Source: a virus. From it: a stretch of 47,143 bases of DNA. The DNA lies in IMG/VR virus record IMGVR_UViG_3300030389_002283, positions 1 to 47,143 of that record. The stretch is one strand, 5' to 3'. Below are positions 12,196 to 47,143 of the stretch, piece after piece. Below the pieces are notes generated by a model, which was not told the origin of the DNA, did no database searches, and saw only the letters and a program-made list of their open reading frames with translations. The translations under genes were made by a program, and so were the position numbers. Within the stretch, counting starts at the first letter, position 1. The number at the start of each line of letters is the position of its first letter.

Positions 12196-12428
12196 TGTTA
12201 TTTAAAAAAGCAACACTCGGAAATCCACTTAGCACACTAGACCATCTTCGCTTAATAAGAAAAACTTTATTGCAAGAAAGTGATTGGACACAGGCTAGTG
12301 ATTCACCATTAACAAATGCCAAGAAAACTGAGTGGGCTACTTATAGACAACAATTGAGAGATTTGCCTGCATCATACTCTAATGAGGACAGTATAAACGA
12401 TGTGGTATTTCCAAGTGAGCCAAGCTGA
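12195..12428 (+). CDS. Tail fibre assembly chaperone-like protein
   Basis: A 77-residue protein with SDWTQASDSPLTNAKKTEW and ATYRQQLRDLP, the signature of the phage tail assembly chaperone family found next to fibre genes (S-D-W-T-Q-x-x-D-S-P-L then W-x-x-Y-R-Q-x-L-R-D-L-P). Start and stop overlap both neighbours. It may assist folding of the 9061 tip protein or the S74 fibre. Confidence 0.85.
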   Translation: MLFKKATLGNPLSTLDHLRLIRKTLLQESDWTQASDSPLTNAKKTEWATYRQQLRDLPASYSNEDSINDVVFPSEPS

Positions 12429-12778
12429 TGAATGAAATAGTTACAGTAATACAACAAGTTGGTTTTCCTATAGCTGCTGCTCTGGGTTTAGGGTGGTTTA
12501 TTTACAAACTAATAATGAGGATTGTAGATGGCATGGAAACAAAGATAGATACTGTTGATGATAAAGTTCAGCAACAAATTGAGGCTATGGAAGAAAGGTT
12601 AGGCACTAAACTTGATTCACAACATGGTATTTTGGTAGCATTAATTGATAGGGTCAGAAGCCTTGATAATGAGATTATAAGACAAGATACATTAATCAAA
12701 ACTATATTAGGTGTGCCACAATTAATAGACAGCAATAAAATTGCAAAAGCAGATAGAGATGACCAAAGAAAAGATTAA
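12428..12778 (+). CDS. Membrane-anchored coiled-coil protein
   Basis: A 116-residue protein with one N-terminal transmembrane helix (VGFPIAAALGLGWFIYKLIM) and a long charged coiled coil (DTVDDKVQQQIEAMEERLG). A C-terminal I-L-G-V-P segment follows. Small TM plus coiled-coil proteins of this type are common near lysis or tail genes in marine phages. A holin-like or scaffold role is conceivable but not shown. It overlaps the next small ORF by 20 bases. Confidence 0.7.
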   Translation: MNEIVTVIQQVGFPIAAALGLGWFIYKLIMRIVDGMETKIDTVDDKVQQQIEAMEERLGTKLDSQHGILVALIDRVRSLDNEIIRQDTLIKTILGVPQLIDSNKIAKADRDDQRKD

Positions 12779-12863
12779 ATATAAAATTGACTGGTATAAG
12801 CTAACAGTTTGGATTTTGATACTGTCATTTTGTTTGATTTTTTGGTATAACATATTGATATGA
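12759..12863 (+). CDS. Tiny membrane protein upstream of csgF
   Basis: A 34-residue ORF not obvious in standard calls: a basic N-terminus (MTKEKIKYKIDWYK) then one hydrophobic helix (LTVWILILSFCLIFWYNILI). It begins inside the preceding gene and its TGA overlaps the csgF ATG (ATGA), which suggests translational coupling into the curli-like cassette. Function unknown; it could be a membrane peptide of the cassette or of lysis. Confidence 0.5.
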   Translation: MTKEKIKYKIDWYKLTVWILILSFCLIFWYNILI

Positions 12864-13345
12864 ACAACACAGAAAAAGATTATTACAAATCAAAAAAAGG
12901 ATGTAGTGTCTTGCTTTTATTATTGCCATTTTTAGCTTTACCAATTTTTGCTGATGAAATGGTACACACTTTCAAAAATCCAAGTTTCAGTGGAATAGGA
13001 ACGTCTGCTCATTACATGACCATTGAAAATCAAGAATTCAATAGAAAGAAAGCAATCAAAGAAGAAATGAAAGCATATCAAGAAGAACTCAAAAGAGAAG
13101 CCGAAAATACAACATTGGCGAGATTCATACGTAATCTTGAAAGCCGAATATATGCACAACTCTCTAGACAATTAGTTGATGCTTTGTTCGGAGAAAATCC
13201 AAGTACAAGTGGTATCTTGGAATTAATGGGAAATACTATTGAATACTATGTTGATGAAGCTCTGGGACTTATTACCCTCAAAATTACTGATAGTGAAGGC
13301 AATGTTACTGAAATTACGCTTCCTATCGGTGATTTCTCTTTCTAG
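12860..13345 (+). CDS. csgF: CsgF-like curli secretion accessory protein
   Basis: A 161-residue secreted protein. A basic start (YYKSKKG) and hydrophobic core (CSVLLLLLPFLALPIFA) form a signal peptide with cleavage near A-D-E. The mature start VHTFKNPSFSGIG parallels the F-R-N-P-N-F-G-G pore-binding N-terminus of bacterial CsgF. The C-terminal part (TIEYYVDEALGLITLKITDS then ITLPIGDF) matches the CsgF pattern Y-x-V-D ... G-x-L-x-L-x-V-T-D ... T-x-I-x-V. In bacteria CsgF plugs into CsgG from outside and couples secretion to fibre nucleation. Immediately followed by csgG, overlapping by 44 bases. No CsgE is seen. Confidence 0.88.
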   Translation: MNNTEKDYYKSKKGCSVLLLLLPFLALPIFADEMVHTFKNPSFSGIGTSAHYMTIENQEFNRKKAIKEEMKAYQEELKREAENTTLARFIRNLESRIYAQLSRQLVDALFGENPSTSGILELMGNTIEYYVDEALGLITLKITDSEGNVTEITLPIGDFSF

Positions 13346-14108
13346 TTGTGCTGCCTTTTTATTTGACCCACTAGAGAATAATATTGTTCCTTTTGCTAAT
13401 CCTGAGGGCGCAGAGATTTTACAAGATGTTTTGCCTGAACTTACTGAGGTAGAAACACCTGCAATAAAACCAACAGTCGCAATATATCCAACAAGTTTTA
13501 CTGACCAAACTGGACAGAGGCTATCAAATAGTCTGTATGCAAGTTTTTCAACAGCAATAACACAAGCGCCACACACATATTTAATCAGCGCTTTACACAA
13601 AGCAGGAAAGGACAACGATGGTTTTTTTACAGTTGTAGAGCGTGTCGGCCTTGATAACTTAACCAAAGAGCGACAGCTTATTAGAACAACAAGAACACAG
13701 TTTGAGGAAGATGATAGCCTTAGGCCTCTTTTATTTGCAGGTTTACTACTTGAAGGTGGTGTGGTAGGGTATGAAAGTAACACCAAATCTGGTGGACAGG
13801 GTGTGAGGTATCTTGGCATAGGATTCTCTAAGCAATACCGAATGGACACTGTGACAGTTTCCTTGCGTCTTGTATCAGTATCTACTGGACAAGTTTTGTT
13901 AGACATTTTGAGCGAGAAAACTCTTTATAGTGCTTCAATATCTCAAGATGTTTTTAGATTTAGAGCTAAAGGAACGAAACTCGTTGAAATTGAAAGTGGC
14001 AATGTTAGGAATGAACAAAAGCGTTTGGCCTTACAGTTGGCAATAGAAACAGCAGTTTTGGAACTTATCTCTAAGGGAAAAGAAAATGGATTTTGGAAAT
14101 ATGATTAA
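13302..14108 (+). CDS. csgG: CsgG-like outer-membrane curli secretion lipoprotein
   Basis: From ATG 13302 the protein is 268 residues (E. coli CsgG is 277). It begins with a short lipoprotein signal peptide and lipobox L-S-S-C (Cys16); the longer upstream frame lies inside csgF and would bury this. The core is unmistakable: KPTVAIYPTSFTDQTGQ, FSTAITQAPHTYLISAL, FTVVERVGLDNLTKERQLIR, GGVVGYESNTKSGGQGVRY then LGIG, and VSLRLVSVSTGQVLL. CsgG forms a nonameric outer-membrane channel for curli subunits. In the pore-constriction stretch aligned by eye with E. coli Y51/N55/F56, only the Phe (F82, S-F-S-T-A) is kept. A signal peptide plus CsgF suggests a working pore. Confidence 0.93.
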   Translation: MLLKLRFLSVISLSSCAAFLFDPLENNIVPFANPEGAEILQDVLPELTEVETPAIKPTVAIYPTSFTDQTGQRLSNSLYASFSTAITQAPHTYLISALHKAGKDNDGFFTVVERVGLDNLTKERQLIRTTRTQFEEDDSLRPLLFAGLLLEGGVVGYESNTKSGGQGVRYLGIGFSKQYRMDTVTVSLRLVSVSTGQVLLDILSEKTLYSASISQDVFRFRAKGTKLVEIESGNVRNEQKRLALQLAIETAVLELISKGKENGFWKYD

Positions 14109-14817
14109 AAAATATTTTATTTTATTCTCTCTACTTGCTTATTGTGGTAATTACCTACTAAGTGATAACGAGGTGTATATCAATCAAGTTGGCGCTACAT
14201 TGAATTTAGATGTAGAACAGCTAGGAAGCTCCAACATTATTGGTGGATTAGATGCTGTTTCTGGTACTATGACAGCATTTGATTTAAATGGCTCTACAAT
14301 GACTGTGGACATAAATCAAATCGGCTCTAGCAACCAGTTTCTAGGTGACATTTTTAGTGATGACTTCACAGGCTTTTTTGAGTTTACTGGTGATTCAAAT
14401 ATATTCAACATAGAGGTTGACCCAACTAACACTTATGGTGCAGACGATGGCAACTTCAATATACAAGTAACTGGTTCAAGCAATGAGTTTGATTTAGATG
14501 TCGCAAAAAATGATTTAGCATCTGGTCTTGACCTAGACTGGATTATTCAAGGAAGCAACAATGAATTTGATTTTGAGATTGATTACGACTTAGGCACAAA
14601 CTACGTTGATGTGGATGGAAGTGATAACACAGTAAACTTCAATGCTGATGGATATGCCGAAGGGTTTTTCTATTTAGACCATACAGGCAGTAGTAGAACA
14701 TTCAATATTACACAATCATCAACTTTAGCTAGTGATTGGCTCAAGATTTTATCTAGTGGCAATAGTGGTACTGTTTGCGTCATTCAAAATGATGGCGGAA
14801 CAAGTACAAGCTGTTGA
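14086..14817 (+). CDS. Secreted curlin-like repeat protein (candidate CsgG/F substrate)
   Basis: A 243-residue protein from ATG 14086 (AAGGGA upstream; ATG 14101 is an alternative). A signal peptide is evident (MIKKYFILFSLLAYCGNYLL). The mature part is acidic and holds seven or eight short repeats around G-S-S-N: NQVGATLN, EQLGSSNII, NQIGSSNQF, FTGDSNIF, VTGSSNEF, IQGSNNEF, VDGSDNTV, HTGSSRTF. These recall the Q-x-G-x-x-N turns of curlin (CsgA/CsgB) but with many Asp residues and fewer Gln ladders. It overlaps csgG by 23 bases. Likely the exported fibre or adhesin subunit; amyloid formation is inferred, not shown. Confidence 0.75.
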   Translation: MDFGNMIKKYFILFSLLAYCGNYLLSDNEVYINQVGATLNLDVEQLGSSNIIGGLDAVSGTMTAFDLNGSTMTVDINQIGSSNQFLGDIFSDDFTGFFEFTGDSNIFNIEVDPTNTYGADDGNFNIQVTGSSNEFDLDVAKNDLASGLDLDWIIQGSNNEFDFEIDYDLGTNYVDVDGSDNTVNFNADGYAEGFFYLDHTGSSRTFNITQSSTLASDWLKILSSGNSGTVCVIQNDGGTSTSC

Positions 14818-15850
14818 TATTGGAAAAGTATTTGAATTAAAAGGTTACGCAAAAGTAATCAGAGAAAAGGATTACAATGCCGAACTAGATTTCGGCATTC
14901 AGTCCTATGACGATGTTAGAACTAGCAATGGCAGGATTGCAATATCTTTTGAAGACCAAAGCACTGTAAAACTAACTGAACATTCAAAATTGGTTATAGA
15001 CGAGTATATCTATGACCCTAACCCATCTAAAAGTAAATTAGCATTAAATTTTGCAAGTGGAACAGTAAGGTTTATTACTGGTAATTTAACTAAAATTGAT
15101 AAAAAAAACATATTTATCAAAACACCTACTGCTGATATTTCTATACGAGGAACAGATTTCACGACGACAGTAAATGAAATAGGTGAGTCTTTAATCATAT
15201 TACTGCCTAATCCAGATGGCTCAGCTAGTGGGGAAATTGAAGTTTCTACAGCTGTTGGCTCAGTAATATTAAATAGACCTTTTGAAGCCACCACAGTTTC
15301 AGTCTATGAAACAATGCCATCTAAACCAGTTATTTTGGATTTAACTTTAGATATTATTGACAATATGCTCATTGTAAGTCCACCTGAGGAGAAAACAGAT
15401 GATGATTTGCAAGGAACACGTCAAGTCAATGGTAACAATCTTTTAGCTTTTGATGATTTAGATATTGACTATCTCGCAGAGGATTTTTTTGAAGATGCTG
15501 ATTTTGAGTTCACAGAGCTAGATATTGATTATTTAAACGTCAATTTTTTTGAAGATTTATTAGATATATTAGAAGAGATTGATGAGTTAGAGGATGAACA
15601 ATTAGACCAACAGGCAACAACGACTGCAATAAAAGGCACTAATGTCGGACAAGACACAACAACGCAAATTACAACAATAATTACTGGCAATCTTATTTCA
15701 TTAAGAAGAAATGTAAATCAATCTGTGCAGTTAGACCTTGATTCAGGCTCTGCTTATACAGTAATCTTTATACAAGATGGAGTATCAAATCAAATAATTA
15801 TTAATGGTGGTGGCTCATCAAAAATAAGAATTTTACAATCATCAGGCTGA
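14732..15850 (+). CDS. FecR-domain periplasmic protein with curlin-like C-terminus
   Basis: A 372-residue protein from GTG 14732, overlapping the curlin-like gene by 86 bases. This start gives a good signal peptide (YLVAIVVLFASFKMMAEQVQA); later starts are possible. Residues ~28-150 are a FecR domain (VFELKGYAKVIREKDYN, DVRTSNGRIAISFEDQSTVK, then IKTPTADISIRGTDFTTTV). Residues ~240-275 contain a near-duplicate acidic repeat (LDIDYLAEDFFED and LDIDYLNVNFFED). The last ~45 residues end in QDGVSNQIIINGGGSSKIRI, resembling the curlin-like repeats next door. It probably works with the cyclase encoded four bases downstream, perhaps as periplasmic sensor or surface protein. Confidence 0.85.
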   Translation: MIGSRFYLVAIVVLFASFKMMAEQVQAVDIGKVFELKGYAKVIREKDYNAELDFGIQSYDDVRTSNGRIAISFEDQSTVKLTEHSKLVIDEYIYDPNPSKSKLALNFASGTVRFITGNLTKIDKKNIFIKTPTADISIRGTDFTTTVNEIGESLIILLPNPDGSASGEIEVSTAVGSVILNRPFEATTVSVYETMPSKPVILDLTLDIIDNMLIVSPPEEKTDDDLQGTRQVNGNNLLAFDDLDIDYLAEDFFEDADFEFTELDIDYLNVNFFEDLLDILEEIDELEDEQLDQQATTTAIKGTNVGQDTTTQITTIITGNLISLRRNVNQSVQLDLDSGSAYTVIFIQDGVSNQIIINGGGSSKIRILQSSG

Positions 15851-15854
15851 GCAA

Positions 15855-17642
15855 ATGAAATTAAGAAAAGTTTTTTATGGCTTTTTGTTGGCTTTATTTT
15901 TTTGTGTGCCTCTTGCATATAACCTTAAACCATTAACAATCTTAAAACTAAAAACCTTTGACACTTTTGTTAAAGAGCAACAACCCTCTGGATATTTTAC
16001 AGTTATTGATATAACAGAGGAAGATGTGCAGAGTTTTGGTGGATATCCTTTTCCTAGAAAAATATTAGGAGAAAAAGCAGCTTTGATAATGGAGCGAGGC
16101 GCACTTGGAGTTGGTTTTGTAATTTCATTTGTGGACGCTGATGTTTTTGGTGGTGATGAACTGTTTAGGGAACAAATGAAAGCGATTCCCTCTGCGGTCA
16201 TTGCCACCTTTGAATATGATAATAAAATCTACCCAGAGCCGACAGGAGTTGTGGTGTTTGGCCAAGAGGCAGAAGGCATAAAACTTAAAGGACACATACC
16301 GACGATTGATGAGCTTTCAGGTCTGAGTCAGGGAATGGTTTCTGCACCTTTATCAGATGATGGATTAGTGCGTACGCTTCCACTCCTCTTTCAAACGCCA
16401 GATGGTTGGATTCCCACATTTGGCACACAAGTTCTAAAAACTTTGGCAGGTAGTGACACGTTTATAATTAAAACAAACGAAAGTGGTATAGAAGAAATTA
16501 CTGTCAAAGGCATACCACCAAGCAAAGTTGATAGATATGGAAGAAAGTGGATTAGTTGGGTGGAAACTCCTAAAACTACGTTACAAGAATTGGATGTTGC
16601 AGGGAAATTTGTTTTTGTTGGTATAACAGCTAAAGGTGTAATGCCACAACTTGCTACAGCGAAAGGTGAGCTTCTTTATCCTCATTACATACAAACTGCT
16701 TTAGCTGAGTCAATTTTGATTACTGATAGTCCAAATATTCCATATTGGCATTTATCATTAGAATTAGCTGTAGTTTTTTTGTCAGTGCTTTTTATTTGGC
16801 TTCTAACACAATTTTTAGGCATCACATGGGGTTTAGTATCAAGTAGTGCAATATTTTTAGGCACAGGCTATTTTGGATGGTCAATGATACAAAAAGGTCT
16901 GTTAATTGATGTAACATGGGCGCTTATAAGTAGTTTTGTGACTGGTAGTATTAGTTTTTACTTAAATTTCAGAACGCAGTATAAATTAAGACAACAAATC
17001 AAAAAACAATTTGAGCATTACTTAGACCCAAGACAAGTCAAAAGACTGCAACAAAATCCAGAGTCATTAAAACTCGGTGGAGAGAAGAAATACTGCACAT
17101 ATTTATTTACTGATGTAAGAGGTTTTACACCTTTGACAGAAAAACTTACTCCTGAGGATGTCACACTAATTATGAATAGAGTTTTAACTGTCCAAGCAAA
17201 TGCAGTTAAGAAAAATGGTGGCATGGTTGATAAATACATTGGAGATGCGATGATGGCAGTTTTCGGCGCTCCACTAAGTATTACAGAGCCAGAGGATAAA
17301 GCCATAGACACAATGATTGATATTCTTGATGGCGTAAATCTTTTGAATTATGAGTTGGAAAATGAAGGTCTGCCTACAATAAAAATTGGTGTTGGTATCA
17401 ATTCTGGAGAGTCTATTGTAGGAAATATGGGCTCAGATACTAGATTTGATTACACTTGTATTGGTGATGCTGTAAATGTTGCTGCACGTTTAGAGTCAAA
17501 TACAAAAGAGTTAGGCGTATCAAATCTTATTGGCGAAGCAACAGCAAAAAACACTACATACAAATTAGAAGAATTAGATGGTATTATGGTTAAAGGCAAA
17601 AGCCAAAAGCTGAATGTCTTTACATGGAGATTTAATTTATGA
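15855..17642 (+). CDS. CHASE2-domain class III adenylate cyclase
   Basis: A 595-residue membrane signalling enzyme, very unusual for a phage. Residues 1-22 are an N-terminal anchor, ~25-290 a periplasmic CHASE2 sensor (FTVIDITEEDVQSFGGYPFPR is typical; ends G-E-L-L-Y-P-H-Y-I-Q-T-A), ~300-375 three transmembrane helices, then a linker and the cyclase domain (~405-560). All catalytic positions are visible: metal-binding D420 (FTDVRGF) and D464 (KYIGDAMMAVFG), adenine-selecting K460 and D532 (FDYTCIGDAVN), and N541/R545 (NVAARLES). It should make cAMP from ATP. FecR genes often neighbour such cyclases in bacteria. The TGA overlaps the holin ATG, so lysis and signalling genes are coupled. Confidence 0.95.
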   Translation: MKLRKVFYGFLLALFFCVPLAYNLKPLTILKLKTFDTFVKEQQPSGYFTVIDITEEDVQSFGGYPFPRKILGEKAALIMERGALGVGFVISFVDADVFGGDELFREQMKAIPSAVIATFEYDNKIYPEPTGVVVFGQEAEGIKLKGHIPTIDELSGLSQGMVSAPLSDDGLVRTLPLLFQTPDGWIPTFGTQVLKTLAGSDTFIIKTNESGIEEITVKGIPPSKVDRYGRKWISWVETPKTTLQELDVAGKFVFVGITAKGVMPQLATAKGELLYPHYIQTALAESILITDSPNIPYWHLSLELAVVFLSVLFIWLLTQFLGITWGLVSSSAIFLGTGYFGWSMIQKGLLIDVTWALISSFVTGSISFYLNFRTQYKLRQQIKKQFEHYLDPRQVKRLQQNPESLKLGGEKKYCTYLFTDVRGFTPLTEKLTPEDVTLIMNRVLTVQANAVKKNGGMVDKYIGDAMMAVFGAPLSITEPEDKAIDTMIDILDGVNLLNYELENEGLPTIKIGVGINSGESIVGNMGSDTRFDYTCIGDAVNVAARLESNTKELGVSNLIGEATAKNTTYKLEELDGIMVKGKSQKLNVFTWRFNL

Positions 17643-18118
17643 AAAAATTATTACAAGGCGTATTAGGAGCAGTAGCGCCAACAATTGGGACTGCGCTTGG
17701 TGGTCCAATGGGTGGCATGGCTGCTAAAATGATTGCAGAGAAATTAGGCCTACCCAACTCAAATCCAAAAACTATTGAATCAGCAATGAGCAATATTTCA
17801 CGTGAGGATGCTATGAAGTTGAAAGAAGCTGAGTTGGAATTTGATGCACAAATGAAGCAAATGGACGTTGATATTTTTGCTTTAGAGGCACAAGAAAAAG
17901 AAAGTGCAAGAAAGTATTTTTCTAAGGATTGGACAGCGAGAGTAATTGGAGTTGCGACTATCGGTGGATTTTTGGGTTATATATTTTTGGTTACACTACA
18001 ACCACCAGAGCAAAACTCAGAAGCCTTAATCAATCTAGTTCTAGGTTATCTTGGTGGCTTAGCAAGTGCTATTATTTCTTTTTATTTTGGAGCATCACAA
18101 TCTAATAACAAAGATTGA
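17639..18118 (+). CDS. Holin, GTA three-TM type
   Basis: A 159-residue protein with a Gly/Ala-rich amphipathic or membrane N-terminus (GVLGAVAPTIGTALGGPMGG), a charged helix (KLKEAELEFDAQMKQMD) and two C-terminal transmembrane helices (ARVIGVATIGGFLGYIFLV and LINLVLGYLGGLASAIISFY). SARKYFSKDWTARVIG before the first helix is typical of the holin family found in gene transfer agents. It begins the lysis group: holin, small membrane protein, nuclease, endolysin. Confidence 0.85.
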   Translation: MKKLLQGVLGAVAPTIGTALGGPMGGMAAKMIAEKLGLPNSNPKTIESAMSNISREDAMKLKEAELEFDAQMKQMDVDIFALEAQEKESARKYFSKDWTARVIGVATIGGFLGYIFLVTLQPPEQNSEALINLVLGYLGGLASAIISFYFGASQSNNKD

Positions 18119-18167: not shown

Positions 18168-18314
18168 ATGGACTTTTTTATAGGATTTATTTTAATATCT
18201 ATTGCCATTGTTGCAATAATCTGGAAATACAAGCCTGAATGGTTAGATTTAGTGAAATCTTTTTTTATTGAAAAATTTAGTTTCTTGAAAAAAGAAAAGA
18301 AAAGTAAAAAATAA
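18168..18314 (+). CDS. Small single-TM protein in lysis module
   Basis: A 48-residue protein with an N-terminal membrane helix (FFIGFILISIAIVAIIW) and a very basic end rich in Lys (KKEKKSKK). A strong AAGGAG site precedes ATG 18168. Its TAA overlaps the nuclease start (TAATG). The N-in-membrane, C-basic plan and its place between holin and endolysin suggest a lysis accessory such as a pinholin-like or spanin-like peptide; no motif proves this. Confidence 0.65.
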   Translation: MDFFIGFILISIAIVAIIWKYKPEWLDLVKSFFIEKFSFLKKEKKSKK

Positions 18315-18679
18315 TGTCTAAGCCATTTTTTTATAACTGCAATTTAGTCAAAGTTGTAGATGGAGATACCATAGACGTTGATGTTGATTTAGGCTTTGAT
18401 TGTTGGCTTCGCAATAAAAGAGTACGTCTGATGGGTATAGATACACCTGAGTCAAGAACAAGAAATCTCAAAGAGAAAGCATTAGGTCTAGCTGCAAAGG
18501 ATAGACTGATTGAGCTTTGTGGCAAAAAACTTAGGCTTCAATCACAAGGTACAGACAAATATGGCAGGATTTTAGGAGTGCCATATACAATTGATGGCCT
18601 TGATATTTGCAATATCTTAGTTGAAGAATCTCATGCAGTTCCATATTATGGTGGCAAAAAAACACATATCTGGGGATAG
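18314..18679 (+). CDS. Thermonuclease (staphylococcal nuclease fold)
   Basis: A 121-residue SNase-like nuclease. Signature segments are VVDGDTIDVDVDLGF (Ca-binding Asp), RVRLMGIDTPESR (catalytic Arg and Glu region), and GTDKYGRILG with a final Arg. No signal peptide, so it acts in the cytoplasm or after lysis. It probably degrades host DNA or scavenges nucleotides. It lies between two lysis genes. Confidence 0.9.
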   Translation: MSKPFFYNCNLVKVVDGDTIDVDVDLGFDCWLRNKRVRLMGIDTPESRTRNLKEKALGLAAKDRLIELCGKKLRLQSQGTDKYGRILGVPYTIDGLDICNILVEESHAVPYYGGKKTHIWG

Positions 18680-18680
18680 A

Positions 18681-19139
18681 ATGAAAAAAACATATATGAA
18701 AATATCTGAGGAAGGTAAATCGTTAATAAAAAAATTTGAGGGCTGTGAGCTTAAGGCTTACAAATGCCCTGCAGGAAAATGGACAATTGGATTTGGCCAC
18801 GTAAAAAATGTTAAAGAGGGTGATGAGTGGTCACAATCTCATGCAGAGCATATGCTTGATGTTGAGCTTGAGGAATATGAGGGCTACATAAATGATATGG
18901 TAGATATGCAATTAAATCAAAATCAATTTGATGCACTCGTTGCATGGATATACAATCTTGGTCCATCAAACTTCCGAACGAGTACATTAAGAAAAAAACT
19001 GACACCTGAAACCATCTCAGAAGTGCCATATGAGATTAAAAGGTGGAACAAAGCAAATGGCAAAACATTAGATGGATTAATAAGGCGCAGAGAGGCCGAG
19101 TCACTTTTGTTTCAAAAAAAGGCTTGGGAACATATTTAA
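18681..19139 (+). CDS. Endolysin, GH24 lysozyme family
   Basis: From ATG 18681 (GGGGATAG upstream; the longer in-frame start lies inside the nuclease gene) the protein is 152 residues. It has ISEEGKSLIKKFEG, then Y-K-C-P-A-G-K-W-T-I-G-F-G-H, and later LNQNQFDALVAWIYNLGPSN and LIRRREAESLLF, all typical of GH24 endolysins that cut peptidoglycan glycan strands. The spacing E20, C29, T35 equals T4 lysozyme E11, D20, T26, so Cys replaces the usual Asp. The absence of a signal peptide means it depends on the holin at 17639. Confidence 0.92.
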   Translation: MKKTYMKISEEGKSLIKKFEGCELKAYKCPAGKWTIGFGHVKNVKEGDEWSQSHAEHMLDVELEEYEGYINDMVDMQLNQNQFDALVAWIYNLGPSNFRTSTLRKKLTPETISEVPYEIKRWNKANGKTLDGLIRRREAESLLFQKKAWEHI

Positions 19140-25008: not shown

Positions 25009-25635
25009 ATGTCATTTACAGTAAAACTTATATCTATTGATGATTTAATAGAATACGAAGATAACCCAAGAAATAATGATGAGGCTGTAGCAAAAGTAGC
25101 AGACAGTATCAAAGAGTTTGGTTTCAAAGTGCCAATTGTCGTTGATGAGGACATGATTATTTTGGCAGGTCATACAAGGTTAAAAGCAGCACGTTTATTA
25201 GGTTTAAAAAAAGTGCCTGTGCATCAAGCAAATGATTTAACAGAAGAACAGCGCAACGCATTCAGGATTATGGACAACAAATCTGGTGAAGCAGCTGATT
25301 GGGATAATGAATTGTTATCAAAAGAGTTTCAAAAATTAGCTGAAACTGATTTTGATATGCTTATGACAGGTTTTGATGATAAAGAAATTGCAAAGCTGAC
25401 GTCAGATATTTTAGAGTTTAAACCCTCAGATGATGTGAAATTTGAAGAAGGTTTTGCTAAACTTGATGATATACAGCCAAGTAATGTAAAAATGGTCAAT
25501 TTGTTTTTGAATCAAGACAATGAGCCGATTTTTCAAGAGATGATAGGAGTGCTTAAAGAAACTTGGGGACTTGAAAATTTGACTGATGCTGTTTATGAGG
25601 CTGTAAAAAAATGTTATGAAAACCCTGAAACTTAA
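25009..25635 (+). CDS. ParB N-terminal-domain protein
   Basis: A 208-residue protein. Residues ~1-110 are a ParB/Sulfiredoxin-fold domain: LISIDDLIEYEDNPRNNDE, VAKVADSIKEFGFKVPIVVD, and the P-loop-like motif ILAGHTRLKAARLLGLKKVP. The C-terminal half is helical and lacks a ParB DNA-binding domain. Phage proteins of this type often travel with DNA modification genes and could choose the target or work as a nucleotide-driven switch. Immediately follows the Cro-like gene and overlaps the TET/JBP gene by 20 bases. Confidence 0.9.
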   Translation: MSFTVKLISIDDLIEYEDNPRNNDEAVAKVADSIKEFGFKVPIVVDEDMIILAGHTRLKAARLLGLKKVPVHQANDLTEEQRNAFRIMDNKSGEAADWDNELLSKEFQKLAETDFDMLMTGFDDKEIAKLTSDILEFKPSDDVKFEEGFAKLDDIQPSNVKMVNLFLNQDNEPIFQEMIGVLKETWGLENLTDAVYEAVKKCYENPET

Positions 25636-26533
25636 ACCACATTACTCTTTAGAGGAAGCAAAAAAAAGAGCAGGTGAATTCGTCACCGAAGATGATTTTG
25701 ATTTACTGATTGAGGACGATTGTGATGCATACGATGAAAATGGTGAGCCACTATTTTTTTTCAGGAAAAATGCAATACCAACCAATTTATGTCGTGATGC
25801 GTATTACGTTCTAAGACACGCAGCAACACCAACAAATAATAGAGGCATGGCAGGTGGTATTATATCTGAGGAAACAAAGGCAGAGTGGGATATTGGTGAT
25901 GTGAGTAAAGTGCAAGTAAGACTAAGAAAGAAAGATGGTACGCTTTCAAACACAAGGAGAGCTAATACAGTAAACTCTGGTATTGTTGGATTTTTTGATA
26001 GAAATGCTAGATTTCCATATTGCAGACAGACAGCTTGGTATGAGAAAAACTTTATGCAGTTTAAAGACGCTTATCCATATATAAAATATATTGATAAACT
26101 TTTTGCAGAGGCCTGTCCTGAAAGATATAAGGCACAAAAAGATATGGCAAATAAAACCAATAAAGACTTTGTCATACAAGATACTGCCTTCACAACAGTG
26201 ACTGTAAACAAAAATTTCAGAACTGCTTTGCATACAGATGCAGGTGATTATGAAAAAGGTTTAGGAAATTTAGCAGTTTTAGAGGCAGGGCAATACAAAG
26301 GTGGTTATACTGTTATACCTAGATACAGAGTCGGCTTCAATGTCAGGTCAGGTGATGTGTGTTTCTTCAATGTGCATGAGTATCATGGCAATACTGAGCT
26401 AAAGAGCAAATTGGCATATGAAAGAATAAGTATTGTGTGTTATTACAGAGAAAATATGTTTCAATGCTTAAATGCTGAAAAAGAATTACAAAGAGCTAAA
26501 GCAAGACAAAGAGGCGATAGTCTTAGTGCCTAA
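25616..26533 (+). CDS. TET/JBP-family 2-oxoglutarate/Fe(II) DNA oxygenase
   Basis: A 305-residue protein. The catalytic jelly-roll is at ~190-280: NKNFRTALHTDAGDYEKGLG gives H206-x-D208, then LAVLEAGQYKGGYTVIPRYR and VGFNVRSGDVCFFNVHEYHG with the second His (H254 or H257), and ERISIVCYYREN with the 2-oxoglutarate Arg (R270 or R278). This is the pattern of phage TET/JBP enzymes, which hydroxylate the methyl of 5-methylcytosine or thymine. The N-terminal ~180 residues are less conserved. It lies in a ParB-TET-amidotransferase-GNAT-transferase-kinase operon. Whether the substrate is T or 5mC is unknown; no methyltransferase gene is seen. Confidence 0.85.
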   Translation: MKTLKLKPHYSLEEAKKRAGEFVTEDDFDLLIEDDCDAYDENGEPLFFFRKNAIPTNLCRDAYYVLRHAATPTNNRGMAGGIISEETKAEWDIGDVSKVQVRLRKKDGTLSNTRRANTVNSGIVGFFDRNARFPYCRQTAWYEKNFMQFKDAYPYIKYIDKLFAEACPERYKAQKDMANKTNKDFVIQDTAFTTVTVNKNFRTALHTDAGDYEKGLGNLAVLEAGQYKGGYTVIPRYRVGFNVRSGDVCFFNVHEYHGNTELKSKLAYERISIVCYYRENMFQCLNAEKELQRAKARQRGDSLSA

Positions 26534-27180
26534 TGTGTGCGGTTTTGGGATTACATAGCCAAGATTACATAGACCTTAATCTATTAAAAAAAATATTGGT
26601 GCAGTCAATGATTAGAGGCAAACACGCTACTGGTATTGCATATTTAGAAAATGATGAAATTAAATACAAAATTATTCCTAGCCATGCAGAGAGTTTTGAT
26701 ATACCTGATATTGCAACAAAATATCTTATTGCACATTGTCGTTATAGCACAAGCGATTTGGAGTATAATCAACCAATAGTAAGTGATAAATGGGCTGTTG
26801 TTCATAATGGCGTTATCACACAGGCACACCCAAGCACATGGCCTGATTTATATGGTTATGAGTTCCAAACAAAATGCGATAGCGAAATAGTCCTTCGTTC
26901 TTTGGAAGATGATAAACACCCACTTAATCTTAATGGCTCTATGGCTTGTGCAGTTTTAGAAAATTCTGACTCAGGCGCTTTACATTTTTTTAGAAACGAA
27001 CAAAGACCTTTATATTTTACTGAGCTAGGCACAACAACGATTGTAGCTTCAACTCGTGATATTTTGGCTCGTTCTGGCATAAATCAAGCTACGAAAACAC
27101 AAGCATGTTACACTTATAAAACTCAAAACAATCAGACGATGAAACACAAGGTACGTGATGTTATTGAAGATTTACAATGA
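26533..27180 (+). CDS. Class II glutamine amidotransferase (Ntn hydrolase)
   Basis: A 215-residue stand-alone glutaminase domain. MCAVLGLHS places the catalytic Cys at position 2, RGKHATGIAYL is the R-G-x-x-x-x-G motif, HCRYSTSDLEYNQPIV and WAVVHNGVI (H-N-G) and KCDSEIVL (D-S-E) are the other family motifs. It would release ammonia from glutamine or act as an amide-bond enzyme. In this operon it might transfer nitrogen onto a modified base. TAATG junction with the oxygenase gene, and it overlaps the GNAT gene by 23 bases. Confidence 0.9.
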   Translation: MCAVLGLHSQDYIDLNLLKKILVQSMIRGKHATGIAYLENDEIKYKIIPSHAESFDIPDIATKYLIAHCRYSTSDLEYNQPIVSDKWAVVHNGVITQAHPSTWPDLYGYEFQTKCDSEIVLRSLEDDKHPLNLNGSMACAVLENSDSGALHFFRNEQRPLYFTELGTTTIVASTRDILARSGINQATKTQACYTYKTQNNQTMKHKVRDVIEDLQ

Positions 27181-27775
27181 AGCTGAAACAGTAAAAGTAT
27201 TAGCACAACAAAGCGAAGGCAGATACACTAAATTTTTCAGAGCTGCTCATAGCCTCTGGAAAAGATTCAAAAACTATGAAAGACACCCACCTTATGTTTT
27301 GCTAAATGAAGAAAATGTAGAAGTTGCGATGATTTACTCTACTTTTAGTGATAAAACCAAATATACCAATCTTTATGAAATCTTTGCATTTGAGGGTCAT
27401 TCAGGAAAAGGTTATGGAAAAAAGGCTTGGGAGTTATGGCTTCAAGCTATGTATGTACGTGGCGCACACCGATTAAAACTATCATGCACACCTGACTCAA
27501 TAGGCTTTCACATGAAAAATGGTCTTGTGTTTTGGTCAGTAGATAGGTCAGGCTCATTGAGGTCAGACCAACCAATTATGCCTTCCATACAAGAACAAAA
27601 AGAGCTAAGAGAACGTGCAATTATTACACCTGATTTAGTTTTGCCTAATCAACAGGTCAGAAAAAGGCTCAAAGGTGAGGAACTAGAAAACTTAGATTTA
27701 TCACAAAACAAATTATTGCAAACTTACGAGGCCATACAAAAAGTAGGAGATTTTTGGCTGCGCAAACATTTATAA
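27158..27775 (+). CDS. GNAT-family N-acyltransferase
   Basis: About 205 residues from ATG 27158; GTG 27155 is also possible. The core motif A EGHSGKGYGKKAWELWL and the following HRLKLSCTPDSIGFHMKNGL are typical of GNAT acetyl-CoA-binding folds. N-terminal ~70 residues include RFKNYERHPPYVLLNEENVE; the C-terminal ~60 residues are helical. It may acylate an amine introduced on a hypermodified base, or modify protein. Sits between amidotransferase and transferase-like genes. Confidence 0.85.
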   Translation: MLLKIYNEAETVKVLAQQSEGRYTKFFRAAHSLWKRFKNYERHPPYVLLNEENVEVAMIYSTFSDKTKYTNLYEIFAFEGHSGKGYGKKAWELWLQAMYVRGAHRLKLSCTPDSIGFHMKNGLVFWSVDRSGSLRSDQPIMPSIQEQKELRERAIITPDLVLPNQQVRKRLKGEELENLDLSQNKLLQTYEAIQKVGDFWLRKHL

Positions 27776-28729
27776 ATGGATTTGAGGTTAGAACAAAATA
27801 GACAAAAGGCTTTTATAGACTGGTCTGTTTGGTCTTTAAATTACAAAGATTGTGACCCTGCATTGTGGATGCTTAATTATTTATTTGACAGATATGAGCA
27901 TAATATAGAGCAAAAATACTGGATTGCTTGGATATATGGCACTACTTATCATCTACCGACTGCTTGGATTATTTGGAATGAGTTTCCAGATTTTGAGTTA
28001 GTTGATTATGACAGATTGAAAGACTGGAATGACAAAAACTATAAAAGATTGCGCTATCAAACAGACACAAAATGGAATAAAGGACACCTACCAGAGCAAT
28101 TTGCCTCTTATCAAAAGTGGGTAGCACATTCAAACGCTTTAGGCACACAAAGGTCTAAGTTTAAAAATCTTGGACATAATTTTTCTATGTTATGGAACAG
28201 TATTAACCAATTACATAAGTTTGGACGTTACAGCACATGGTTTTATATGCAAACATTAAATGATTGTGTCGGTCATCGTGTTGTGCCTACTAATTTGAAA
28301 TTAGATGATTACTCAGGCTCTAGGAGTCATAGGAATGGTCTTTGCTATGCGTTAGCACGTGATGATTTGATAGATAAAAAACTAACAAATACACAGTTGC
28401 ATGAGTTACAACAAGGCGCACAGTTTTTGCAAGACCAAATAAACGCTAAAGGTTTTGATATGGATTTCTACGAGATGGAAACGCTTTTATGTAGTTTCAA
28501 AAAAATATTCAGAACTTCAAGAGGTAGATACTTAGGCTATTACTTAGATAGACAAGCAGAGGAAATAAAAAAAGTAGAGGCTGATGGTTGGCATGGTATT
28601 GATTGGCAAGTTTTCTGGGATGGTAGGAAAGAGTGTTTGCATAAAAAATTGTCAGCATCAAGGAGCATTAGAGAAGATTTATACAAAGTTTTTCTCAATA
28701 CAGGGACTTTGGAATATGGCACAGTTTAA
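27776..28729 (+). CDS. Candidate DNA-base transferase (alpha-GPT pyrophosphorylase/HMUDK-helical-like)
   Basis: A 317-residue, mostly helical protein rich in Trp and Tyr (FIDWSVWSLNYKDCDPALWM; YWIAWIYGTTYHLPTAWIIW; FGRYSTWFYMQTLNDCVG; GSRSHRNGLCYALARDD). The G-R-Y/F-x-x-x-x-Y-x-x-Q-x-L and R-N-G-L-x-x-A-L-x-R-D patterns resemble, by eye, the glycosylase-like helical domain of thymine-hypermodification enzymes (alpha-glutamyl/putrescinyl thymine pyrophosphorylases, also the helical part of 5-hmdU DNA kinases). It would replace a pyrophosphate on 5-hydroxymethyl-U with an amine. It is followed by a kinase gene, overlapping by 14 bases. Family call is moderate. Confidence 0.55.
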   Translation: MDLRLEQNRQKAFIDWSVWSLNYKDCDPALWMLNYLFDRYEHNIEQKYWIAWIYGTTYHLPTAWIIWNEFPDFELVDYDRLKDWNDKNYKRLRYQTDTKWNKGHLPEQFASYQKWVAHSNALGTQRSKFKNLGHNFSMLWNSINQLHKFGRYSTWFYMQTLNDCVGHRVVPTNLKLDDYSGSRSHRNGLCYALARDDLIDKKLTNTQLHELQQGAQFLQDQINAKGFDMDFYEMETLLCSFKKIFRTSRGRYLGYYLDRQAEEIKKVEADGWHGIDWQVFWDGRKECLHKKLSASRSIREDLYKVFLNTGTLEYGTV

Positions 28730-29264
28730 AGCAGTAGCAATTGGTGGTGTTCCTGCAACTGGGAAATCAACACTAATGAAAGCCATAATTGAGAAACTTA
28801 AAAAAACTTCATCTCCTACCACTTGGAAATTTGGTCTTTTGAATGGCCTTATGTTTGACAATATCTGTATAATCGGTACGTATCCTGCTGAACAGACTTT
28901 TGGTGGCACAGATAGACTATCTATGGCTGCGCCTAAAGATATGCAAAAATTTATTGATTGGGGTGAAAGAAGTATTTTATTTGAAGGTGATAGATTGTTT
29001 ACCAAAAATATTCTAGAAAATTTAATACAGAAATATGATACGAAAATAATTGTGTTGGATTGCGATGAGCAGACTTTAGACGAAAGACACAAAGCAAGAG
29101 GTGATAGTCAAACAGAAAAATTTCTTAAAGGGAGAGCTACTAAAATACAAAACATATTAAAGAGCGAGGCCATCAAGATAAGAACAGAGATATATACACT
29201 GTCAAGACTGAAATTGACCGACGACCTCGCAGACCAAGTTATTTCATTTTTTCGCCAAAGTTAA
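28716..29264 (+). CDS. P-loop kinase, candidate 5-hydroxymethyl base DNA kinase
   Basis: A 182-residue kinase from ATG 28716. The Walker A motif GGVPATGKSTLMKAI is at the start, D-R-L-S near the middle, SILFEGDRLFTK as a Walker-B-like strand, KIIVLDCDEQTLDERHKARGD, and KGRATKIQNIL as a lid-like helix. Nucleoside/DNA kinase fold. Next to the transferase-like gene and TET/JBP oxygenase it fits a 5-hmU (or 5-hmC) DNA kinase that activates the hydroxymethyl group. Its last 26 bases overlap the end of the convergent primase-helicase gene. Substrate not shown. Confidence 0.7.
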   Translation: MAQFKAVAIGGVPATGKSTLMKAIIEKLKKTSSPTTWKFGLLNGLMFDNICIIGTYPAEQTFGGTDRLSMAAPKDMQKFIDWGERSILFEGDRLFTKNILENLIQKYDTKIIVLDCDEQTLDERHKARGDSQTEKFLKGRATKIQNILKSEAIKIRTEIYTLSRLKLTDDLADQVISFFRQS

Positions 29265-44900: not shown

Positions 44901-47143
44901 TTGGATTTTGTTGTTGGCACATTAAACCAAGATACGACTGGAACTGCTGCTCTTGCAACACAGGTCACAGTTTCGGCAAATAATTCTACAGACGAAACAA
45001 TATTCCCAGTCTTTGTAGATGGTGCAACAGGCTCACAGGGTTTAGAAACAGACACAGGCTTCACTTACAATCCCTCAACTGGTTTAATCTCCTCTGCAGG
45101 CCTTACAGCGTCTGGAACAATAACATTTGGCAGTATATCTGATGGCAGTATAACAATTACTGCTTTTGTTGATGAGGATAACATGGCCTCTAACTCAGCT
45201 TCCTTAGTACCAACACAACAATCTGTAAAAGCCTACGTTGATGCCGAAGTATCAGCTGCAGGTGGTATGTCAAGTTTCATTATGGAAGATGATGATGGCA
45301 CAGAAGTAACAATCAATAACAATAAAGAAGTTAAATTTATTGGCTCAGGCATAACAACAAACTTTACTGATACAAGCACAGGCTCTGATAGTGACCCATT
45401 TGATTTGACCTTTACAATTGACGCTGCACAAACAGGTATAACCTCTATCCTTGCTACAGATTTAAAGATTGGAGAGGACGACCAAACAAAAATAGATTTT
45501 GAAACAGCAGACGAAATACATTTCTATGCTGCAAATGCAGAACAAGTTTTTGTATCTGATGGCGTTTTTGGACCACAAACAGACAGTGACGTAGATTTAG
45601 GAACAAGCTCAGTAAGATTCAAAGACGCTTACTTTGATACCTTGAATACAAGTGGAACTATTACATCAGGAGCAAATAGTGGAGTTATAAAAGAAATAGG
45701 AAGTGACTTATCATTAGTACAAGGAGCAGTTGGTTTAAGAATTAATGATGCAGCTTCAGCAATCTCACCAACCACAGCTAGTGCTAATAATGATGATGCT
45801 GTTGATTTGGGTGTCAGTAATATTAGATTCAAGGATATTTATATATCAGGAAAACTCACTAATGACGGGAGCGGAGGCGTATCGTTAGACGCTGCAGGAG
45901 ATATTACTCTTGATGCTGATGGTCAAGATGTTCTTTTCAAAGATGGTGGCACACAATTCGGCTCTATCAGAAAAAATGGAAACAATATTCAACTCATGGC
46001 CTCCATACAAGATGGTGATATTACATTTCATGGTGATGATGGTGGCTCAGCTATCACTGCCCTTACACTTGATATGTCAGATGCAGGTACAGCAACTTTT
46101 AACCACGATATAAAATTAGCTGATAATGGGAAAGCTGTATTTGGTGATGGCAGCGATTTAAATATATTCCATGATGCAACTGATGGCAAAATAGAAAATG
46201 AAACTGGTGACTTAAGATTTTTACAAAAAGCAAATGATGGTGACATTATATTTTCAAGTGATGATGGCTCTGGTGGCACTATTCAATATTTCAGAGTTGA
46301 TGGTGGTAATGAAATTGTAGAATTTAACAGAGATGTAAAACTTGGTGATAACGTAGATTTGAAGGTTGGAACTGGTAACGATTTACAGTTATTGCATGAT
46401 GGAACAAATTCAATTATTAAAAATACTTCTACAGGAAATCTAATTATCAGAAATACAGTTGATGATGGAGATTTGATATTGCAGTCAGATGATGATTCTG
46501 GTGGTGTTACAAACTATATAACTTTAGATGGTAGTGGAGCACAAACAATATTTGGACAAGATGCAAAATTTGGTGATAGTGTCCTATTAAAATTTGGAGC
46601 TAGCAATGACCTGCAGATAAAACATGACGGCTCAAATTCATTTATAGACCAAGTTGGTGTTGGTAGCCTTAACATACGTAATACAACTGATGACGCAGAT
46701 ATTATTCTATCCTCTGATGATGGTAGTGGTGGTGTTACAGCTTATTTATCACTTGATGGCTCTGAAGGTAATATTTTTTCTAGTGTCAATTTCAGAGCAG
46801 TTGATAACAAATTGATTGGTGTTGGTAATGCACATGACCTAAGACTAAAACATGATGGCACAGATTCTATAATTCAAAATGAAACAGGTAGCCTAAGTAT
46901 TATAAATAATACTGATGACGGAGATATTATTTTTAAAACAGATGATGGCTCAGGCAGTAATACAGCTTATTTAACTCTTGATGGTAGTGCTACAACTATC
47001 AACTTTGCAAAAAATGCCACATTTCCAGATGATGTAAAAATAGTATCAGGCACAGGTGGAGATTTAGAAATATTCCACAATGGTTCAAATAGCGTAATTA
47101 AAGACACAGGCACAGGCAATCTAAACTTAATATCAAATGGTGC
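41967..47143 (+). CDS. Giant repeat fibre, N-terminal part (3'-partial; continues at base 254)
   Basis: Starts at ATG 41967 (MAISRVTVSDTSTINSV) and stays open for 5177 bases to the window end. Joining 47143 to base 254 gives about 2083 residues. Residues ~115-520 contain long Asp/Ser-rich repeats (YVDAQLTAQDLDFQGDSGG twice, 111 residues apart, then a variant). The second half holds many beta repeats of 75-76 residues with the core GNDLQLLHDGTNSIIKNxTGN plus DDGDxxLxSDDGSGG. The S74 domain at the far end makes this an autoprocessed trimeric fibre. It lies between capsid and connector genes rather than after the tail tip. Confidence 0.9.
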   Translation, partial: MAISRVTVSDTSTINSVTITDTNAISVVTVGTQGLSGPNAILGRSVVDSTASTSGSLLIYDHDNTRWEDSQSTRSQSLTAKLFNLQFTTGGATVTQIFDEDDMSSNSATGLVTQQSIKAYVDAQLTAQDLDFQGDSGGALSIDLDSETLDIAGGTGIDTSGSGNTITVAIDATVATLSGAQTLTNKTIDADNNTLSNIEVDNLKSGVLDTDISSVAGTDTTLASAKAIKTYVDAQLTAQDLDFQGDSGGALSIDLDSETLDIAGGTGIDTAGSGNVLTVSIDSTVVTLSGTQTLTNKTLTSPKINDSNAITATGAEINIIDGDTSESAVVIVDADRFIVNDSGTMKQLAASRISTYVAGTTETLTNKTINADNNTVSNIEVDNFKASAIILESEGIGSNDNDTTIPTSAAVKDYVDTQITAEDLDLTSDSGTIAIDLDSETLTIAGGEGIDTSATGNTLTIAAEDATASNKGVASFDSTDFTVSSGAVTVNAERVQDIVGAMVSSNTENGISVTYEDSDGTLDFDVADPTLTFTGDVTGSGTITNLADTSFALTIAANSVALGTDTTGNFVQAISGTSNEIEVSGSGSEGATVTIGLPDDVTIGNDLIVTGNLTVQGSTTTLNTATLDVEDKNITLNKGSGDTSGSADGAGITIQDAVDASTDATILWDASADIFKTSHGLRINGDTKTFSVGAGGDFSLVHNGTDTFMANSTGHFYITTTSDDKDIIFRTDDGSGGVAEYITVDGSQERTVFHKPIRIDDNVGFNVGTGSDFQISHNGTNSIIANHTGTLFITQNVDDGDLQLRSDDGSGGTTSYITLDGSAVRTEFPKDTKHSDDVKALFGGGNDLEIFHSSSNNHSVIKESGSGNLRINADDLIIYNTAVNETKASFLTDGSVRLFHNDIKKFETTSTGIDVTGAVVATSLDISGDVDVDGTLEADAITVNGETLAEVIADTVGAMVGSNTETGITVTFNDSDNTLDFVVGTLNQDTTGTAALATQVTVSANNSTDETIFPVFVDGATGSQGLETDTGFTYNPSTGLISSAGLTASGTITFGSISDGSITITAFVDEDNMASNSASLVPTQQSVKAYVDAEVSAAGGMSSFIMEDDDGTEVTINNNKEVKFIGSGITTNFTDTSTGSDSDPFDLTFTIDAAQTGITSILATDLKIGEDDQTKIDFETADEIHFYAANAEQVFVSDGVFGPQTDSDVDLGTSSVRFKDAYFDTLNTSGTITSGANSGVIKEIGSDLSLVQGAVGLRINDAASAISPTTASANNDDAVDLGVSNIRFKDIYISGKLTNDGSGGVSLDAAGDITLDADGQDVLFKDGGTQFGSIRKNGNNIQLMASIQDGDITFHGDDGGSAITALTLDMSDAGTATFNHDIKLADNGKAVFGDGSDLNIFHDATDGKIENETGDLRFLQKANDGDIIFSSDDGSGGTIQYFRVDGGNEIVEFNRDVKLGDNVDLKVGTGNDLQLLHDGTNSIIKNTSTGNLIIRNTVDDGDLILQSDDDSGGVTNYITLDGSGAQTIFGQDAKFGDSVLLKFGASNDLQIKHDGSNSFIDQVGVGSLNIRNTTDDADIILSSDDGSGGVTAYLSLDGSEGNIFSSVNFRAVDNKLIGVGNAHDLRLKHDGTDSIIQNETGSLSIINNTDDGDIIFKTDDGSGSNTAYLTLDGSATTINFAKNATFPDDVKIVSGTGGDLEIFHNGSNSVIKDTGTGNLNLISNG
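46368..47143 (+). repeat. Tandem 225-228 bp repeats in the fibre gene
   Basis: Repeat cores begin near 46368, 46596, 46824 and 47049, one every 225-228 bases (75-76 codons), with older copies at about 44041, 44262, 44490 and 46140. Each encodes G-x-x-D-L-x-x-x-H-D/N-G-T/S-N/D-S, then T-G-x-L, then D-D-x-D-I-I-x-x-S/T-D-D-G-S-G. The window start matches this array with one unit missing. Confidence 0.85.

Follow-up and report, generated by a model that had tools for sequence, protein, structure and literature searches.

A curli gene cluster ending in an adenylate cyclase

The adenylate cyclase gene at 15855-17642 of the marine phage in IMG/VR virus record IMGVR_UViG_3300030389_002283 (positions throughout are those of the window, the whole stretch of 47,143 nucleotides analysed) is the last gene of a curli/type VIII secretion system (T8SS) cluster comprising csgF, csgG, a curlin-like gene, a gene for a FecR-domain protein and the cyclase, all on the plus strand. 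The four genes immediately 5' of the cyclase had been overlooked in the original prediction. The csgF product (12860-13345, 161 aa; Pfam CsgF, 5e-16) is a homologue of the curli secretion pore accessory, and the adjoining csgG (13302-14108; Pfam CsgG, 1.7e-43) encodes a homologue of the outer-membrane curli pore that is 42-44% identical to CsgG of the pelagiphage HTVC008M and of the Methylophilales phage Melnitz. We set the csgG start at ATG 13302, which gives a lipoprotein-like start; the longer listed open reading frame (ORF) begins at TTG 13239. Upstream lies a gene for a small membrane-anchored protein (12428-12778, plus strand) that recurs before csgF in other phages, including relatives of the window, and is nearly without amino-acid change among genus relatives (dN/dS 0-0.015). 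The curlin-like gene (14086-14817) encodes a secreted protein of 243 aa with six QxGxxN/xGSxN-type repeats; its match to Pfam Curlin_rpt is below threshold (E 0.28, 11.6 bits against a cut-off of 20.7), and it is homologous in both place and sequence to curlin-associated genes of HTVC008M and Melnitz. The FecR-domain protein (14732-15850, 372 aa; Pfam FecR, 1.6e-11) and the cyclase form the 3' end of the module, with a gap of four bases between the two genes.

Downstream on the same strand follow a small membrane protein and possible holin (17639-18118), a staphylococcal-nuclease-like protein (18314-18679; Pfam SNase, 3e-11) that is a recurrent neighbour, and an endolysin of the phage lysozyme type (18621-19139; Pfam Phage_lysozyme, 6.1e-45). 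The cyclase TGA had been said to overlap a holin start. The overlap is real, the ATG of the downstream gene sharing an ATGA with the cyclase stop at 17639-17642, but the evidence for a holin is weak, as the gene belongs to phrog_1544, a family of unknown function, and a single homologue of the gene matches GTA_holin_3TM at E 0.008, below the cut-off. Promoter and terminator signals between 11.9 and 19.7 kb are no more frequent than in shuffled sequence, so that no transcription unit can be drawn, and the window contains no tRNA or Rfam element.

The window carries genes for a tail terminator, major tail protein, tape measure, distal tail and J-like protein, an HK97-type capsid and a portal, and no sheath or baseplate genes among the ORFs scanned; the virus is classed by its gene content as a lambda-type siphophage. 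Its last ORF, which is tail-fibre-like, runs off the end of the record, which may therefore be incomplete. Positions 1-253 and 46666-47143, within tail-fibre-like ORF sequence, are imperfect repeats (92-97%) representing either repeat modules or an assembly join.

Domain structure and catalytic site of the cyclase

The prediction of a complete class III adenylate cyclase at 15855-17642 is confirmed, with coordinates, frame and stop exact and both domains far above their Pfam cut-offs: CHASE2 at residues 16-313 (E 1.5e-21) and Guanylate_cyc at residues 412-585 (E 1e-17). Pfam, alignments and an AlphaFold model (mean pLDDT 90.8) together describe a protein of 595 aa with the layout of a CHASE2 sensor protein, that is, an N-terminal transmembrane helix (2-21 in the model), a periplasmic CHASE2 domain, three transmembrane helices and an output domain, here a class III catalytic domain with Lys460 and Thr534. 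The CHASE2 sensor and its three helices (modelled at 299-320, 322-346 and 354-386) are intact, as originally proposed. In fold comparison the modelled catalytic part matches CyaC, CyaB and photoactivated cyclases with Z scores of 24-27, the superposition on CyaC with bound ATP analogue reaching Z 27.2 (rmsd 1.6 A over 186 residues). The model is a monomer and cannot show the dimeric active site, and the question of which residues face adenine is addressed by alignment and fold.

Five of the catalytic residues first listed, D420, K460, D464, N541 and R545, were correctly numbered, and across 83 aligned phage cyclases all are invariant except N541, which is kept in 82; D420 and D464 form the metal-binding Asp pair. 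The sixth, D532, had been paired with K460 as the residue that selects adenine. We reject this pairing, as the base-selecting Thr of P. aeruginosa CyaB and of photoactivated cyclase aligns with T534 (Thr in 76/83 phage cyclases and Ser in six), and D532 is a conserved neighbour (81/83). This makes the adenine-selecting pair Lys/Thr, as in class IIIb, the subclass for which base selection by Lys/Thr is the rule. S. platensis CyaC (1wc1), P. aeruginosa CyaB (3r5g) and photoactivated cyclases share with the window protein the catalytic fold, metal Asp pair, Lys/Thr and Asn/Arg, but they lack a CHASE2 sensor and do not come from phages. At the level of sequence, the catalytic site is shown to be intact and of the ATP-using, class IIIb Lys/Thr type, and the gene is predicted to encode a conserved class III adenylate cyclase that is embedded in the inner membrane, carries its CHASE2 sensor in the periplasm and is very probably active.

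Selection was estimated against two genus-level relatives (L173 and L174); a third record (L172) is a near-identical copy (99.99% over 13.8 kb). By the Nei-Gojobori method, dN/dS is 0.04-0.08 for the linker plus cyclase domain, 0.12-0.16 for CHASE2 and 0.33-0.45 for the region of the three helices, figures that are approximate as synonymous sites are close to saturation. Every gene of the curli cluster is constrained among these relatives, the curlin-like and FecR genes strongly so (dN/dS 0.03-0.09). Of ten relatives with apparent internal stops in the cyclase, nine proved to be BLAST extensions beyond the true stop, and one (L049) has a real, in-frame premature stop at codon 66. Judged from these comparisons, purifying selection on the cyclase gene is strong, and almost every relative has kept it intact.

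Conservation of the neighbouring genes

Relatives of the window cyclase are encoded on at least 599 viral contigs. We compared 82 related viral loci, picked as the closest to the window cyclase. Wherever the flank was long enough, FecR (54/54), CsgG (28/28) and CsgF (28/28) were found upstream. Downstream, a holin-like gene lies within 1.2 kb of the cyclase in 18/76 loci, a lysozyme gene within 3.5 kb in 29/45 siphophage-type relatives and an ATGA at the cyclase stop in 11/82, the holin and lysozyme counts being lower bounds since their profiles were built from the same loci. Set against the constant FecR and CsgG, these counts lead us to reject coupling to a holin as the conserved context, and they do not support the holin link as the one that matters. 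The same five- or six-gene order is present in HTVC008M and Melnitz with no lysis gene after the cluster. The constant unit is therefore FecR plus the curli genes, and lysis genes are usual but not constant surroundings of the cluster in siphophage-type contigs. As lysozyme is near the cluster in many of the latter, some tie to the end of infection is possible.

HTVC008M (KC465899) carries a T8SS module with the gene order csgF, csgG, curlin-like, FecR and CHASE2-cyclase in common with the window, differing in a second curlin-like gene between FecR and the cyclase where the window has a single curlin-like gene; its cyclase is 34% identical to that of the window over 94% of the length. Melnitz, a T4-like myophage (PMC9004378), has csgF, csgG, curlin-type genes, FecR and CHASE2-cyclase in the order of the window. 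Its cyclase (L003, 7911-9959), which is not discussed in that report, is 30% identical to the window's and carries Asp in place of T534 and Ser in place of N541, changes that might lower or modify its activity, so that some lineages may not have retained an active enzyme. A T8SS module that includes FecR and adenylate cyclase genes was described by Wittmers et al. 2022 (PMC9599517) from Myoviridae and from Podoviridae of the HTVC023P type (about 59 kb), whereas the module of the window accompanies lambda-type siphophage tail genes and stands in a lysis cassette. Curli clusters in ocean phages are thus already published, and clusters of curli, FecR and cyclase genes are widespread in them; the place in a siphophage lysis cassette appears to be new, no description of it having been found in the literature searched. 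The window cyclase is genuine and conserved, is probably active, and belongs to this published phage module. The original prediction was right about the enzyme, and weak in its choice of base-selecting residue and in its reading by way of lysis and CRP.

The FecR-domain protein as a candidate partner of CHASE2

In the model, the FecR-domain protein has an N-terminal signal-like helix, a FecR fold at residues 29-189 that resembles the cell-surface signalling domain of PupR, then an acidic, disordered linker and, at 300-372, a beta domain at the C-terminus; Pfam adds a sub-threshold SepF match to the FecR domain. The C-terminal domain ends in a curlin-like pattern, which is one of sequence only: Foldseek returned no curli match, and we do not assign it a curlin fold. 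The phage FecR protein was read as an iron-citrate regulator by Wittmers et al. (PMC9599517) and is read here as a partner of CHASE2. We rejected a FecI/FecR-type regulator because the N-terminal helix is of the secretion type and there is no cytoplasmic anti-sigma N-domain.

FecR genes also accompany CHASE2 proteins in bacteria. A FecR gene lies within 2 kb in 59/75 bacterial loci with the closest cyclase relatives, mostly rhizobia, and a further bacterial locus (L157) has FecR beside a CHASE2 cyclase relative; most non-rhizobial bacterial relatives have no detectable FecR neighbour. Campylobacterota CHASE2 cyclases are clustered with a FecR-domain outer-membrane protein (PMC9239204), an operon of FecR and a CHASE2 kinase is required for biofilm in Burkholderia (PMC5192318), and CHASE2 cyclases of S. 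meliloti are driven by the outer-membrane protein NsrA (PMC7529298). S. meliloti CyaD1/D2/K and the Campylobacterota clusters (PMC7529298, PMC9239204) resemble the window in domain order and adjoining FecR gene, but curli genes are missing from the bacterial loci, and the cyclases encoded there lie outside the phage clade and are only 25-34% identical. On the basis of the bacterial FecR-CHASE2 linkage and these three reports, we infer that the phage FecR protein is the periplasmic partner of CHASE2; the constancy of this linkage, common to phages and bacteria, names it as the likely sensor partner.

We therefore propose a FecR-to-CHASE2-to-cAMP envelope relay in which the cyclase is the signalling output of the phage-borne curli cluster, a reading of the sequence that we think has an even chance of being correct. 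The secreted FecR-domain protein with its curlin-like C-terminal domain would sit in the periplasm and, as gene linkage suggests, partner CHASE2; the cyclase would thereby turn the condition of the envelope, or of curli secretion through CsgG, into cytoplasmic cAMP. The timing is probably late, because in the window siphophage the cluster is flanked by tail genes and lysis genes that share its strand. Against the relay, the count of bacterial FecR neighbours is dominated by one clade, the rhizobia, and no cAMP receptor is visible in phage or SAR11-type genomes.

The alternative that survives best is that the CsgG-CsgF pore has been repurposed to control lysis or release, with the cyclase modulating timing. 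Buchholz et al. (PMC9004378) proposed a pinholin-like or secretin-like role for the CsgG-CsgF pore of Melnitz, and the position of the cluster within the lysis cassette of the window, with holin-like genes flanking it on either side and lysozyme often close downstream in relatives, is consistent with such a role. However, the clusters of HTVC008M and Melnitz adjoin no lysis gene, and a bare pore would have no need of the constraint seen on the curlin-like and FecR genes. We consider this explanation unlikely.

cAMP output and SAR11-type hosts

The original prediction was that cAMP made by the phage acts via a host CRP-like protein, retuning carbon and energy metabolism or timing lysis. cAMP-CRP is used by many bacteria, the enzyme looks active, and there is the ATGA overlap with the possible holin gene; but the holin linkage is not conserved, and no cNMP-binding protein is encoded in ten phage records (the window, HTVC008M, Melnitz and seven related viral records). 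Neither did any protein pass the cut-off for a Crp-type HTH in 147 SAR11-order genomes, which were taken from the order to which a MAG titled Candidatus Pelagibacter belongs and come without completeness values. Matches to cNMP_binding occur in 11 of the 147, all in long ORFs. As these genomes need not include the host of the window phage, the results are counter-evidence and no refutation; we regard action through CRP as improbable, more so than control of lysis by the pore. Naming the host from capsid, terminase and tail proteins was abandoned, the nearest isolates being 28-49% identical and in disagreement (Rhizobium, Microcystis and Roseobacter phages).

Two of the cNMP_binding ORFs were inspected (L168 and L166); in one the domain is fused with an acyltransferase and in the other with an ABC exporter that has a C39 domain, and both are possible unusual cAMP receptors. 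The search of the 147 genomes for cyclases covered class III and found one on a phage-like contig and nowhere else, and phage-type CsgG was confined to that same contig apart from two weaker matches elsewhere. Because HTVC008M infects a member of the SAR11 order, such a cyclase has at least one carrier whose type of host lacks the usual cAMP receptor. As these SAR11-order genomes show no CRP and no class III cyclase of their own, the usual account of cAMP cannot be assumed there.

Phages in general interfere with cyclic-nucleotide defences, and SAR11-type hosts seem to lack an ordinary cAMP circuit, which would suit a cyclase that manipulates such a defence as decoy, competitor or ATP drain with no envelope signalling; a decoy would nevertheless be poorly served by a membrane enzyme that is under sensor control and has fixed curli and FecR neighbours, SAR11-type hosts have streamlined genomes, and we think this very improbable. 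That the cyclase is an inactive passenger of curli-cluster acquisition, as the premature stop in L049 and the loss of the catalytic Asn in Melnitz might suggest, is scarcely credible given the near-invariance of the catalytic residues and the low dN/dS of the catalytic part.

The envelope relay can be taken a step further. A secreted FecR/curlin-type protein might report the state of the pore built by the phage to the CHASE2 cyclase, with a novel type of cAMP receptor, in hosts that have neither a cyclase nor CRP of their own. We put this trans-envelope version forward as a speculation that is more likely wrong than right by a wide measure; if the relay exists, streamlined hosts without such a signalling circuit would be receiving one from phages.

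Origin of the cluster

Phage cyclases and those of five phage-like contigs binned in MAGs group in one clade (support 100/99) that excludes all 20 bacterial cyclases sampled, and within it a long branch (100/100) separates the clade of the window cyclase from the HTVC008M/Melnitz group, in a tree built without the podophage sequences of Wittmers et al. This topology fits a single old acquisition of the cyclase that later spread among phages, as was proposed for podo- and myophages (PMC9599517). Curli genes were joined to a cyclase relative in no sampled true bacterial locus. A bacterial source of the whole module, for which six contigs from bacterial MAGs (among them L084, L085, L086, L088 and L089) and close relatives with curli genes were considered, was rejected as these contigs look phage-like, five of them carrying curli genes or flanks homologous to phage. 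The MAGs concerned are labelled Pelagibacter, Neomarinimicrobiota, Rhodobacteraceae and Flavobacteriaceae, which probably reflects binning of phage contigs, or else hints at hosts.

Elsewhere in the window, positions 25009-29264 (plus strand) encode in a row a ParB_N protein, a Tet_JBP 2OG-Fe(II) oxygenase, a glutamine amidotransferase, a GNAT protein, an ADDT amino acid:DNA transferase and a P-loop kinase-like protein, which looks like a thymine DNA-hypermodification cluster.
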